A DNA stretch of 55,782 bases from Pseudomonadales bacterium (GTDB lineage: Bacteria; Pseudomonadota; Gammaproteobacteria; Pseudomonadales; Azotimanducaceae), in NCBI GenBank assembly GCA_017854255.1, contig JAFMIA010000015.1:1-55782 (forward strand), written 5' to 3'. Shown one piece after another: positions 35,179 to 39,453 of this stretch. The position numbers and the translations under genes are program-made. Positions within the stretch are counted from its first letter, which is position 1, and each line of letters starts with the position of its first letter. The notes beneath the pieces were generated by a model. The model searched no databases. It worked only from the letters and a program-made list of their open reading frames with translations, and was not told the origin of the DNA.

Positions 35179-35204
35179 TACGGTCAGTTGAGCGCATTAG
35201 ATCA
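35179..35204 (-). promoter_or_regulatory. Predicted ECF (RpoE/ChrR) promoter of rpoE-chrR
   Basis: On the minus strand TGATCT (35204-35199), 16 bases, then CGTA (35182-35179) followed by AACC. This is close to the TGATCC / CGTAA pattern known for ChrR-partnered sigma factors. It lies directly behind the lipocalin stop and 63 bp before the sigma start, so the sigma would activate its own gene. The same spacing and -35/-10 core recur before folE. Confidence 0.6.
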
Positions 35205-35207
35205 TTA

Positions 35208-35837
35208 TTAATCATTGCGATTGATGTTCGACTCAGTTTCTTGGACCTGTAACGAGCGCATGGGCTCATGAATGCGGATTTGAGAGAGATCGTACCCCAA
35301 GGTTTGGACGGTTGTCATAAGGGTTGCAAAGGTTTTGGGATCAATGGCAGGCGTTCGCGCCATCACCCAGACAAAGTCGCGCTTGGTTCTACCGATGATG
35401 GTTGTTTGGTAGTCGTCATCGAGATACACCACCCGGTATTCAGCTTTGACGGGCCAGAAAATTTGCATGCCCCAAATTGCCGGTGACTCGGCTGAGACGA
35501 ATCCCTTCAGATTGCGCTCGCGCAGAGGGCCGTCAGGGCTGCCCTCTCGATAAGAATAAGTCGTCTCGACCACGCCGCCCGGGGCAAGTTTGTAAGTCTC
35601 AAGGGGGTTGACCGCATTACGATCAAAGGGGGTCGCGATATCAGCAAGCACGTGCCAATCGCCCATAAAGCGCGTTAGGTTTAGGTCAGCAACGGTATTC
35701 ATAGGCGGTCTCGGTTGAGCGCTGCATCCATTCAGCAGAAGTACGGCGAGCCCAAATCCAATCTGGACGAATCTGGACAGTTTACGCGATGCTTTTTGGG
35801 TTGGATCAGCCGCGGCGCTCCAAAACAAGCCGCTCAA
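35208..35837 (-). CDS. Outer-membrane lipocalin (Blc-like lipoprotein)
   Basis: 209 residues. A lipoprotein signal with lipobox LLNGC near residue 38 is followed by a lipocalin fold: [11 protein letters not shown] (the conserved G-x-W strand), then [28 protein letters not shown] as parts ([19 protein letters not shown]). Bacterial lipocalins bind lipids and are often produced under membrane stress. The start is TTG 35837 overlapping the folE stop (TTGA); no ATG occurs before the lipobox. It is cotranscribed with folE, upstream of rpoE-chrR. Confidence 0.85.
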
Positions 35838-36511
35838 CTGAGGAATTCGGCTCGAGCGGTCGGGTTGGCCTTGAACTGGCCGCCCAATGCGGTTGTTTCG
35901 GTTTGGGAGCTCGTGTCCATGACGCCTCTCGACTTCACGCAGTAGTGGGTGGCTTTGATGCGGACGGCAACACTGTCCGTGTCGAGAAGGGTTTGTAAGG
36001 CCACTAAGATCTGCTGGGTCAAGCGCTCTTGAACTTGCGGTCTTTGAGCGAAAAAGCGCACGATACGATTGATTTTAGACAGGCCAATAATCTTTTCATT
36101 GGGAATGTAAGCAACATCAGCAACACCATCGATGGTCACGAAGTGGTGCTCACAGGTGCTGGTGAGGTTGATGTCAGTGATTTTGACCATCTCCTCAACG
36201 CCCATCTTATTTTCGATGACTGAAATCTTGGGAAATTGACTGTAATCCAGTCCGGAGAAAATTTCGTCGATATACATTTTGGCAATGCGGTGCGGTGTCT
36301 CTGTTAGGCTGTCGTCACTGAGGTCGAGCCCCAAGGTGGTGACAACATCGCGCATAGCGGCCTTGATCCGAAGATACTTCTCATCGCGAGTCAGGCCAGT
36401 TTCAAGCATCGGCGTCTCAAGTCCTTTGAGCACCAAAGCGTCTTTAACGGCGGCAGCTTCGGTGCTGATTGCAGTTTTTCGGGTAATTGATGAGGCGGCA
36501 AGTGACGTCAT
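35834..36511 (-). CDS. folE: GTP cyclohydrolase I
   Basis: 225 residues. Zinc and active-site motifs of type I GTP cyclohydrolase are present: [36 protein letters not shown] (in pieces: [16 protein letters not shown]) and [10 protein letters not shown]. It converts GTP to dihydroneopterin triphosphate, the first step to folates and pterins. ATG 36511 follows AAAGGA. In this place, next to a photolyase and an RpoE-ChrR switch, it may supply the methenyl-tetrahydrofolate or pterin antenna of the photolyase; light-inducible folE copies next to photolyase genes are known from pseudomonads. An ECF-type promoter precedes it. Confidence 0.95.
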
Positions 36512-36544
36512 GTCTAGGTCCTTTTCGTGACAGGTAGAAAAAAA

Positions 36545-36570
36545 TACGAGGCTTTGATCAAATCAGATCA
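36545..36570 (-). promoter_or_regulatory. Predicted ECF (RpoE/ChrR) promoter of folE-lipocalin
   Basis: On the minus strand TGATCT (36570-36565), 16 bases, then CGTA (36548-36545) followed by TTT, 34 bp upstream of folE. It is the second copy of the pattern before rpoE. The -35 element is also part of the palindrome TGATC-TGATTT-GATCA (36555-36570). Confidence 0.55.
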
Positions 36571-36716: not shown

Positions 36717-37025
36717 ATGGCATTTAAAAAGATAAACCTGGTTGATTTGATCCAGCGGGCTCGAAACGAGTCCGTGAATCTGCTGATCCAAAGTCAAGAT
36801 CCTGAGATTTATTTGGTCGAGGCGGATGTAGGCGGTGCGCGCTACGCCGTGATAACAGACAATGGTCAGCGACTCATGACCCGAAGTTTGGGCGCGATGA
36901 AGCGAGCGCTCGTTGGGATTGAATATGGTGCTGCGACCTTGAGACATCAAAGTAGTTTTGATGAAATGATTGGCAATCCAGTTGCCGGCAGCGATCTTGC
37001 CTTAGAGATGCCGCTTAAGCTGTAG
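36717..37025 (+). CDS. DUF6482-like small protein
   Basis: 102 residues with the pattern of small Pseudomonas DUF6482 proteins: helical N-terminus (LVDLIQRARNESVN), LLIQSQDPEIYLVEADVGGARYAV as a beta unit (IYLVEADVGG), then ARYAVITDNGQ and a helix before a charged tail. Function unknown; no signal or membrane segment. ATG 36717 follows AAAAGGTAAG. It opens the plus-strand group that includes the photolyase, divergent from folE. Confidence 0.6.
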   Translation: MAFKKINLVDLIQRARNESVNLLIQSQDPEIYLVEADVGGARYAVITDNGQRLMTRSLGAMKRALVGIEYGAATLRHQSSFDEMIGNPVAGSDLALEMPLKL

Positions 37026-37103
37026 CGCAAGCAGCGAGTAAAAACGGCTTCGCCTTGTCACACCTTGTTAGTAGTCCAGTATGATCAAAAGAGGATCGAT
37101 CCT

Positions 37104-38000
37104 ATGCCGCTTCAGACCCAGCTCGTGGGGCAGTGCACGTCGCCAAGACACCACGCGGTTGATACTCGTTGGACCATGGCCTACGCGGCCGGTCTGCAAG
37201 ACGAGAATCCGCGATTGCGCGATACCACCCAAGCAAGCCTCTGCGTACATCCCTTGTTTCCGGTGTGTTTGGAATGGCCCAGTGTCTTGGATAGCCGAGC
37301 ACTACCCGGACACGATGGCTTGAGCGATGACGAGCTTGCCCGGGGGGTTCATGCAACCCATGATTTGCATGTGATAAAGCCGATTGTGCCTGGGCAGGCT
37401 TATCAAACCACCGCGAGGGTCGTTGATTTGCAGGCAGGTCAGCAGGGCGCTAGGGTCTGTTTACAGCTTGATACCTATGATGAGGCCGGTGACTTGGTGA
37501 CGAGAACCTGGCAAACCAATGTGAGCCGGGGCGTGACGATCGAGGGTCCCGCGGCAACGCCCATTGCGCAAGCGCCCGCCTGGCCAGACATTCATCTGAC
37601 GCAGCAAGCGGTCGACGCGAGAAGGGAAATACCGATCGCGGTTTCAGCAGGGCTCGGCAACATCTATACCGAGACGGCAAGAATTTACAACCCGATTCAT
37701 TCCGATCGAGCCTTTGCGCTGGCGGCGGGCTTGCCAGACATTATTTTGCATGGCACAGCATCGCTTGCACTGTCGGTGACTGCCTTGAGCCGTGAGCTGC
37801 TCGATGGCGCGGTGGATCAGGTCACCCGGCTGGGTGGGCGTTTTACCAGTATGGTCTTGATGCCTCAGACTTTAACGCTGCACATTACGGCGCAAGGCTC
37901 GGATTGGGCGCTGTTCGAGCTGCGCAATGACGTTCAAGCGCCGGTCATAAAAGATGGGTTTATGGTTTGGTCACAAGCGTCGGCCACGGCAATAATTTAA
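37104..38000 (+). CDS. MaoC-like double hot-dog hydratase
   Basis: 298 residues. The second hot-dog domain bears the hydratase-2 signature in IYNPIHSDRAFALAAGLPDIILHG: an Asn-Pro-Ile-His segment, with Ser-Asp following, and a downstream Leu-His-Gly. The first half is a degenerate hot-dog (WPSVLDSRALPG). It probably hydrates or dehydrates (R)-3-hydroxyacyl-CoA esters. ATG 37104 follows AGAGGA; the frame is open to 37065. It lies 78 bp after the DUF6482-like gene and 34 bp before the photolyase, so it is likely in the same transcript. Confidence 0.82.
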   Translation: MPLQTQLVGQCTSPRHHAVDTRWTMAYAAGLQDENPRLRDTTQASLCVHPLFPVCLEWPSVLDSRALPGHDGLSDDELARGVHATHDLHVIKPIVPGQAYQTTARVVDLQAGQQGARVCLQLDTYDEAGDLVTRTWQTNVSRGVTIEGPAATPIAQAPAWPDIHLTQQAVDARREIPIAVSAGLGNIYTETARIYNPIHSDRAFALAAGLPDIILHGTASLALSVTALSRELLDGAVDQVTRLGGRFTSMVLMPQTLTLHITAQGSDWALFELRNDVQAPVIKDGFMVWSQASATAII

Positions 38001-38034
38001 TAGTCAAAACAACATTGATGCGAGGCGAAATGTA

Positions 38035-39453
38035 ATGCGAACCCTTCACTGGTTTAGAAACGATCTTCGGTTGCAGGATAACCCAGCGTTGCTTGCAGCT
38101 TGTCAGCAGGGCGAGGTGTTACCGGTTTTTATATTGGACACCGATGAGCCCGTGCGGTCGGTGCTGGGCGGTGCTTCTCGCGCTTGGCTCCACCAATCTT
38201 TAACGGCGCTGGATGCAAGTCTTAACAATAATCTGGTGATGCTGAAGGGCTCGGCTCAAACCCTGATTCCAGATTTGTGCGCGCGCTATCAGATTGAGGC
38301 CGTGACCTGGAATCGCGGCTATGAGCCGTGGACGATTCAGCGCGACTCAGGTTTAAAAGCAGCGCTAAAAGCCAACGGTCTTTCGGTTACCAGTTATAAC
38401 GGTGCACTCTTGTTTGAGCCTTGGGACACGGTAAAAAAAGATGGATACCCTTACCGCGTGTACACGCCTTTTTATAAGCATTGTATGGCGAATCTAGCCA
38501 CCCGAACGCCGGGCGTGCTCAACACGGCTCGGATTCAGGTGGTGCCACATGGGGAACAAGCGGGACTTGAATCGCTCGCGTTACGCCCGAAGGTGGCATG
38601 GGACGAGGCGATGTTGATGGACTGGACGCCGGGTGAGCAGGGCGCGCAGGGTCGGTTGCAGCATTTCCTGGCAACCGGAATGGGCGATTATCGAGAAGGT
38701 CGAGACTTTCCTGCCAAGCGTTCGGTTTCTGGTTTATCTGCGCATCTCCATTTCGGAGAGATTTCACCGCATCAAATCTTAGCAAGCGTGCGCGCCGAGT
38801 CGCCCGCTGATGATAACCAAACGCATTTTATTAAAGAGTTGGTTTGGCGCGAGTTTTCTTACAACCTGTTGTATCACTTCCCCACGTTGCAAGAGAAAAA
38901 CCTGCAAGCGAAATTTGATCATTTTCCATGGGAGACCGACGAGACTTTCCTGAAAGCCTGGCAGACCGGGCAAACGGGTTATCCGATTGTGGATGCAGGC
39001 ATGCGTGAATTGCGGCAAACCGGCAGCATGCACAATCGGGTCCGCATGATTGTGGCCTCGTTCTTGATCAAAAACCTGAAGCTGCACTGGCACCACGGTG
39101 AGCGGTGGTTTTGGGACTGTTTGGTAGACGCTGATCTCGCCAGTAACAGCGCCAGCTGGCAGTGGTGCGCCGGTAGCGGCGCGGATGCAGCGCCCTATTT
39201 TCGGATTTTCAATCCGATTACCCAGGGTCAACGATTTGACCCCGATGGGGCGTACACGCGGCGTTATGTGCCTGAGCTAAAGCGGATGCCCAGCAAATAT
39301 TTGTATGAGCCTTGGGCGTGCCCGGTTGAAATCAGCCGCGCGGCCGGGGTTGTCATTGGCAAAGATTATCCAGCGCCGATCGTTGAGGTGAAGGCCTCCA
39401 GAGAGGCTGCGCTTGCGGCGTTTAGTGAAATGAAACGTCGCGCTGAAAGTTAG
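38035..39453 (+). CDS. phrB: Deoxyribodipyrimidine photolyase (class I CPD type)
   Basis: 472 residues, the usual photolyase length. The N-terminal antenna domain opens LHWFRNDLRLQDNPAL. The FAD domain shows LHFGEISPHQIL, ELVWREFSYNLLYHFP, IVDAGMRELRQTGSMHNRVRM (parts IVDAGMREL and MHNRVRM), and ASWQWCAGSGADAAPYFRIFNP (parts). The enzyme repairs cyclobutane pyrimidine dimers with blue light. GAGGCGAAATGTA lies before ATG 38035. Its placement with folE and RpoE-ChrR suggests control by light or singlet oxygen. Confidence 0.93.
   Translation: MRTLHWFRNDLRLQDNPALLAACQQGEVLPVFILDTDEPVRSVLGGASRAWLHQSLTALDASLNNNLVMLKGSAQTLIPDLCARYQIEAVTWNRGYEPWTIQRDSGLKAALKANGLSVTSYNGALLFEPWDTVKKDGYPYRVYTPFYKHCMANLATRTPGVLNTARIQVVPHGEQAGLESLALRPKVAWDEAMLMDWTPGEQGAQGRLQHFLATGMGDYREGRDFPAKRSVSGLSAHLHFGEISPHQILASVRAESPADDNQTHFIKELVWREFSYNLLYHFPTLQEKNLQAKFDHFPWETDETFLKAWQTGQTGYPIVDAGMRELRQTGSMHNRVRMIVASFLIKNLKLHWHHGERWFWDCLVDADLASNSASWQWCAGSGADAAPYFRIFNPITQGQRFDPDGAYTRRYVPELKRMPSKYLYEPWACPVEISRAAGVVIGKDYPAPIVEVKASREAALAAFSEMKRRAES

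Follow-up and report, generated by a model that had tools for sequence, protein, structure and literature searches.

Gene content and promoter sites of the locus

The window, by which is meant the whole 55,782-nucleotide stretch of DNA analyzed here, carries on its minus strand the genes folE (36511–35834), lipocalin (35837–35208), rpoE (35146–34520), and chrR (34523–33852), in that order. On the plus strand, divergent from folE, lie genes for a DUF6482 protein, a MaoC dehydratase, and a photolyase (together 36717–39453, assigned by Pfam), and for a DUF3429 protein. The rpoE product is an ECF sigma factor of the ECF11 group with the Pfam regions Sigma70_r2 and r4, and among solved structures its best match is R. 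sphaeroides RpoE (2q1z_A, E 7.5e-36, the runner-up reaching 1.8e-14). The start of chrR overlaps the rpoE stop codon, and its product, a zinc anti-sigma factor with a cupin domain (Cupin_7, “ChrR cupin-like” in Pfam), has R. sphaeroides ChrR as best structural match (2z2s_B, E 7.5e-28). All eight zinc ligands, taken from the list in PMC6852236, are retained (H5, H30, C34, and C37, together with H149, H151, E155, and H185); the N-terminal His and H-x3-C-x2-C of the anti-sigma domain are present, as is HxHx3E ... H of the cupin. A ChrR match accompanies 78 of the best 80 rpoE relatives, and at the two loci having none (L118 and L155) the sequence stops within or just past rpoE. Judged by its sequence, rpoE–chrR is a genuine ECF11/ChrR pair.

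The folE gene encodes a type IA GTP cyclohydrolase I of the E. coli kind (PF01227; 1fbx, E 3.7e-85), scoring 358 bits against a cut-off of 202 for the NCBIfam FolE equivalog NF006824, and is the second copy in the genome, the other being located on contig C53. The lipocalin gene (Lipocalin_2, PF08212, E 5.9e-29) is an open reading frame that, starting at TTG, overlaps the folE stop, and its start codon is uncertain; its translation contains a lipobox-like LLLNGC, identified by eye, consistent with a lipoprotein.

The earlier note on this DNA had described a matched TGATCT-N16-CGTA pair ahead of rpoE–chrR and folE. Both members are present as exact matches on the minus strand, one at 35179–35204, from which rpoE–chrR would be autoregulated, with 32 nt from CGTA to the rpoE ATG (35146), and one at 36545–36570, with 33 nt from CGTA to the folE ATG (36511). 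The two sites stand, but the set was incomplete: a third exact match on the same strand, TGATCC-N16-CGTA at 35808–35783, lies at the 5′ end of the lipocalin gene and had been overlooked. The arrangement expected of an ECF11 regulon, in which the sigma gene and its putative targets are each preceded by TGATC(C/T)-N16-CGTA, is thus found here, with three matches to TGATCY-N16-CGTA in 55.8 kb as compared with 0.12 expected, and with at least three matches in none of 100 dinucleotide shuffles.

The pattern had been called very similar to that recognized by known ECF sigma factors partnered with ChrR, and rightly so, in that motif and spacing equal both the consensus given for PSPTO_1043 of Pseudomonas syringae (TGATCC, 16 n, CGTA; PMC5507510) and the Shewanella RpoE2 promoters, which mostly have identical boxes and spacing, one having TGATCA, and for two of whose genes transcription starts have been mapped (PMC4336711). 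For V. cholerae, TGATC-N18-CGTAT is given in the text and a spacing of N16–18 in a legend (PMC5241685).

The divergent genes had also been regarded as probable members of the regulon, an assignment that found no support in the window, where the DUF6482, MaoC, and photolyase genes have no N16 site before them even when one mismatch is allowed. The nearest solved structure to the photolyase is 4u63 (E 9e-137), which we take to be the class III photolyase of Agrobacterium with a folate antenna. That the DUF6482–MaoC–photolyase group nonetheless shares the regulon is unlikely, but has some grounds: ECF11 targets include phrB-type genes in P. syringae (PMC5507510) and, by prediction, in Shewanella (PMC4336711), and a TGATCT-N16-CGTT variant occurs in the corresponding divergent region of two relatives, G051 and L101. 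The variants, however, stand at different offsets in the two relatives, and CGTA is invariant among the P. syringae sites printed in PMC5507510. The MaoC gene (37104–38000) has no match in the corresponding G051 and L101 clusters, which suggests that it was inserted in the present genome.

Occurrence of the motif in the genome and beside rpoE and lipocalin genes

A genome-wide excess of the motif, to which the earlier note had looked for confirmation, did not materialize. The whole genome contains eight strict N16 sites, whereas the 30 other spacings between 4 and 34 average 9.2 (285 sites over all spacings together; Poisson p 0.70), so the N16 count is not enriched. This result favors a narrower reading, in which only the autoregulation of rpoE–chrR is real and the folE and lipocalin sites are due to chance or have been kept by proximity. 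With respect to position, four of the eight N16 sites fall outside long open reading frames, as compared with five of the 27 sites at other spacings that were among the matches listed with loci (out of 285 places), a difference that is not significant (p 0.095); the rpoE site is scored in this comparison as covered, owing to an over-long open reading frame. Five of the eight lie at gene starts, namely those of rpoE, folE, lipocalin, a fasciclin lipoprotein, and a 59-residue open reading frame, and three lie inside genes, named by eye as lon, a TonB receptor, and a histidine kinase. None of the eight strict sites precedes a photolyase or furan-fatty-acid (cfa/ufa) gene, such as make up the core ECF11/ChrR regulon, or an rpoH gene. 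In this genome taken alone, position is the sole support for the sites, and the deciding evidence is comparative.

The fasciclin lipoprotein has three domains (PF02469, E 8.9e-90), and its gene lies behind the strict site at 1526–1501 on the minus strand of contig C90 (L005); in the relative G052 a secreted protein identified by eye as FAS1-like likewise lies behind a strict site (L285). The R. sphaeroides RpoE regulon includes the fasciclin protein RSP_1409 as well as the GTP cyclohydrolase gene folE2 (RSP_1852) (PMC7074977; PMC6852236). Strict sites in G052 and G022 also precede proteins named by eye as DUF1295-like and flavin-oxidoreductase-like. Two congeners have a strict site ahead of the short open reading frame, which comprises 59–60 residues and begins MLRLLALAAHFSP: the present genome, on contig C64 (L004, site 1526–1501, minus strand), and G051, on contig C69 (L284). 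Between the two, the first 36 codons differ at 10, 3, and 21 sites in codon positions 1, 2, and 3, respectively, a bias that, as expected, fits a translated and conserved small protein, and the remaining codons compared differ at 18, 16, and 18 sites, with no bias. A Pfam search with this reading frame gave no match.

Upstream of rpoE, the motif was examined at the best 80 named loci recovered with a profile from 11 RpoE sequences, over 350 bp upstream plus 60 bp. An N16 site is present on the rpoE strand at 48 of the 80, as against two matches in all at the 30 other spacings, and a strict site is absent upstream of rpoE at the other 32. The opposite strand of the same regions has 28 N16 matches versus four at other spacings, and in the rest of the flanks N16 accounts for 25 matches, the average for all 31 spacings being 3.2. 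The confinement to N16 upstream of rpoE, together with the excess in the flanks, points to the motif as the promoter of this sigma group, often shared by neighboring genes. G051 and L101 retain the rpoE site of the window but differ from it in the spacer. Sites facing away from rpoE occur at 28 of these 80 loci (L101–L180), suggesting that in many cases the divergent neighbor, too, is a likely target. Three members of the family (L079, L080, and L081) have a second, diverged sigma type (33–34% identical) adjoining ChrR, and in G014 and G046 (L079 and L080) a membrane protein identified by eye as DUF1295-like comes after this sigma–ChrR pair. The diverged sigma was missed at the RpoE cut-off of E ≤ 1e-30 in three genomes containing the window type of FolE, and a looser search placed it beside ChrR.

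G051 and L101 keep all three sites of the window, their spacers changed; L118 has a lipocalin gene with its own strict site on a contig with no folE match; and in G052 the lipocalin, rpoE, and folE genes each have a strict site in a rearranged gene order. In all four relatives the strict site occupies the corresponding end of the lipocalin gene, so that, with the window, it is present at five of six lipocalin genes seen near rpoE or folE, a sample that is not random because these genes were found via their neighbors. The sixth (G038, L044) follows a folE gene with a one-mismatch site. The lipocalin start codon of L118 and G052 lies 9 nt after CGTA. In the window and in G051 the site overlaps or abuts the presumed start codon, so a transcript from it might be without a start codon; in G051 an in-frame ATG follows CGTA by 2 nt and a further one falls within the spacer, and the translation start is accordingly uncertain in both.

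Sites before folE and its co-occurrence with ChrR

Relatives of folE were collected by a search of 61 genomes of the family, which separates FolE of the window type (10 genomes, 67–100% identity) from another FolE kind (≤42%), and by a search of 341 genomes of the order, which adds 69 loci in 68 genomes. Among the resulting 79 orthologues, the window included, a strict site lies within ∼260 bp of folE in 15, all with N16 and none at any of the 30 other spacings. A further 14 loci have an N16 site with one mismatch near folE, where each other spacing gives 0–5, and 11 more have a strict N16 site further upstream on the same strand, such that 40 of the 79 have some N16 site. The upstream regions scanned in the other 39 contain neither a strict nor a one-mismatch N16 site, a result that, like the genome-wide count, speaks for autoregulation of rpoE–chrR as the only real activity of the motif. 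Within 1.5 kb upstream of folE, in contrast, the 79 loci contain 26 strict N16 sites and two at all other spacings; the 26 sites represent 25 loci, L043 having escaped owing to an over-long open frame. The other FolE kind has a strict site at none of 21 loci, which is a weak control since only six of the 21 are in genomes with a close RpoE.

At several loci the site precedes an operon-like arrangement of pterin genes. In the f27 group of 14 loci, folM precedes folE in 12 and a strict site precedes folM in eight, and the orders site–folX–folE, site–folX–folM–folE, and site–folE–folM are found in G118, G144, and G105, respectively. The FolX proteins of L199 and L221 and the FolM proteins of L200, L209, and L221 pass the NCBIfam cut-offs; the remaining FolX and FolM names rest on phmmer matches to such proteins. 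At six loci (L041, L045, L225, L231, L233, and L238) folE directly follows rpoE–chrR. A DASH cryptochrome precedes folE at L212, and a photolyase-related protein follows it at L224.

The association of this FolE with ChrR extends to whole genomes. With a profile from 19 ChrR sequences, four of them from genomes of the family having the window type of FolE, and with at most eight candidates scored per genome, ChrR is detected in 178 of 341 genomes of the order at E ≤ 1e-25. These comprise 68 of the 69 genomes with FolE as compared with 110 of the 272 without it (Fisher 1e-21, kinship ignored), the lone exception being G069. At the level of genera the corresponding values are 31 of 32 and 35 of 100 (p 9e-11, ancestry ignored). 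When both searches are combined, 75 of 78 genomes with FolE have ChrR at E ≤ 1e-12; of the three others, G031 and G069 have neither ChrR nor a site, and G028, an 85% complete genome, has a site and no ChrR found. By their coordinates, folE and chrR are no more than 10 kb apart in 15 of the 78.

These observations make it highly improbable that autoregulation alone is real. The sites before FolE orthologues are confined to N16 (26 versus 2) also where folE is far from chrR, separate folE, lipocalin, and rpoE sites survive rearrangement in G052, and FolE occurs without ChrR in just one of the 69 genomes of the order sample. Still less probable is control of folE by a LitR/CarH-type light repressor and sigma-70 with the ECF11 motif playing a minor part, as suggested by P. 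mendocina, where light raises folE 1.6- to 3.3-fold and folM ∼2.5-fold (PMC9758184), in that a sigma-70 consensus scan of the window reveals no promoter-like site before folE and the ECF11 site there is exact and conserved. The confinement of the sites to N16, the co-occurrence of FolE and ChrR, and the retention of all three sites in two relatives indicate instead that the RpoE–ChrR regulon very probably includes folE and the lipocalin gene. In this respect the earlier note, which had joined GTP cyclohydrolase and lipocalin to a regulon of the ChrR type, is borne out by the comparative evidence on the sites.

The proposed circuit, known systems, and the role of pterins

With good confidence, the locus can be described as an autoregulated circuit of an ECF11 sigma factor and its ChrR anti-sigma factor with two neighboring targets, folE and the lipocalin gene, a description founded on sequence and comparison through the type of regulator, the promoters, their conservation, and the co-occurrence of FolE and ChrR. 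In the proposed mechanism, ChrR would keep RpoE inactive until an oxidative, probably photo-oxidative, signal releases it, and freed RpoE would then transcribe rpoE–chrR, folE, and the lipocalin gene from three separate TGATCY-N16-CGTA promoters; these putative promoters are on the same strand, and read-through is likely. Elsewhere in the genome, the fasciclin lipoprotein gene and the short conserved reading frame carry the same predicted promoter. The favored purpose of folE induction would be an extra supply of pterin or folate, as antioxidant pterins or as the folate antenna of photolyase, and that of the lipocalin may be maintenance of outer-membrane lipids.

FolE2 is an enzyme family different from the PF01227 FolE encoded in the window. 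This distinction applies to one of the closest parallels, the RpoE–ChrR system of R. sphaeroides, which resembles the window in having a homologous regulator pair and a regulon that includes a GTP cyclohydrolase and a fasciclin protein (PMC6852236; PMC7074977), but whose cyclohydrolase is FolE2; a further difference is the lack of strict sites before cfa, photolyase, or rpoH genes in the genome of the window. Induction of FolE2 is reported for R. capsulatus (PMC7074977). In P. syringae, PSPTO_1043/1042 is likewise an autoregulated rpoE–chrR pair with the promoter TGATCC-N16-CGTA, and its oxidative induction has been demonstrated; the system differs in that the main text names no folE, cyclohydrolase, or lipocalin, and in that the phrB operon is a target there and not demonstrably so in the genome of the window (PMC5507510). 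The rpoEc–chrR–chrA system of Stenotrophomonas maltophilia shares with the window a target of the lipocalin family, smlt2367, which is up 165-fold in a chrR mutant in an rpoEc-dependent manner, but which lies inside a nine-gene cluster with cfa genes (PMC11832516). That system serves against superoxide rather than singlet oxygen (PMC11832516), and the signal of ECF11/ChrR systems can therefore differ; singlet oxygen, to which the earlier note had tied the regulon, is a candidate signal in the present organism. The folM–folE–folX genes of P. mendocina resemble several of the relatives examined here in that a light-inducible folE lies beside folM and folX; the system differs in its regulator, LitR with a LOV protein, and the term “ECF” is absent from the main text (PMC9758184).

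GTP cyclohydrolase, as FolE2, and lipocalin are thus already known elsewhere as targets of ChrR systems. What appears to be new, in a modest sense, is that type IA FolE, frequently accompanied by FolX or FolM, recurs as a predicted ECF11 target in the order. The openly accessible literature covered, mostly at the level of listings, contains no report in which an ECF11 sigma factor controls PF01227 FolE, FolX, or FolM, and the text of a paper on pterins as bacterial signals (PMC13259868) mentions neither singlet oxygen nor photolyase.

A broader proposal, tentative and somewhat short of an even chance, is that RpoE–ChrR owns, across the order, a dedicated branch of pterin synthesis, consisting of an E. 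coli-type FolE that is almost confined to genomes with ChrR and often lies beside FolX and/or FolM, leading from GTP to tetrahydromonapterin. Tetrahydromonapterin was set aside as the product in the present organism, whose genome contains only one gene of the FolB/FolX type (PF02152); FolX is consequently probably missing, and the monapterin version of the proposal may not apply here. If the broader proposal is true, reduced pterins would be an effector of the photo-oxidative response, as quencher, cofactor, or supply for the photolyase antenna, which would explain why the unrelated enzymes FolE, in the present organism, and FolE2, in Rhodobacter, have been recruited to one regulon. By promoter spacing, gene linkage, and co-occurrence in several families, the ChrR circuit very probably takes in a committed step of pterin synthesis, and the role of the extra FolE and of tetrahydromonapterin thereby becomes directly testable in culturable relatives.
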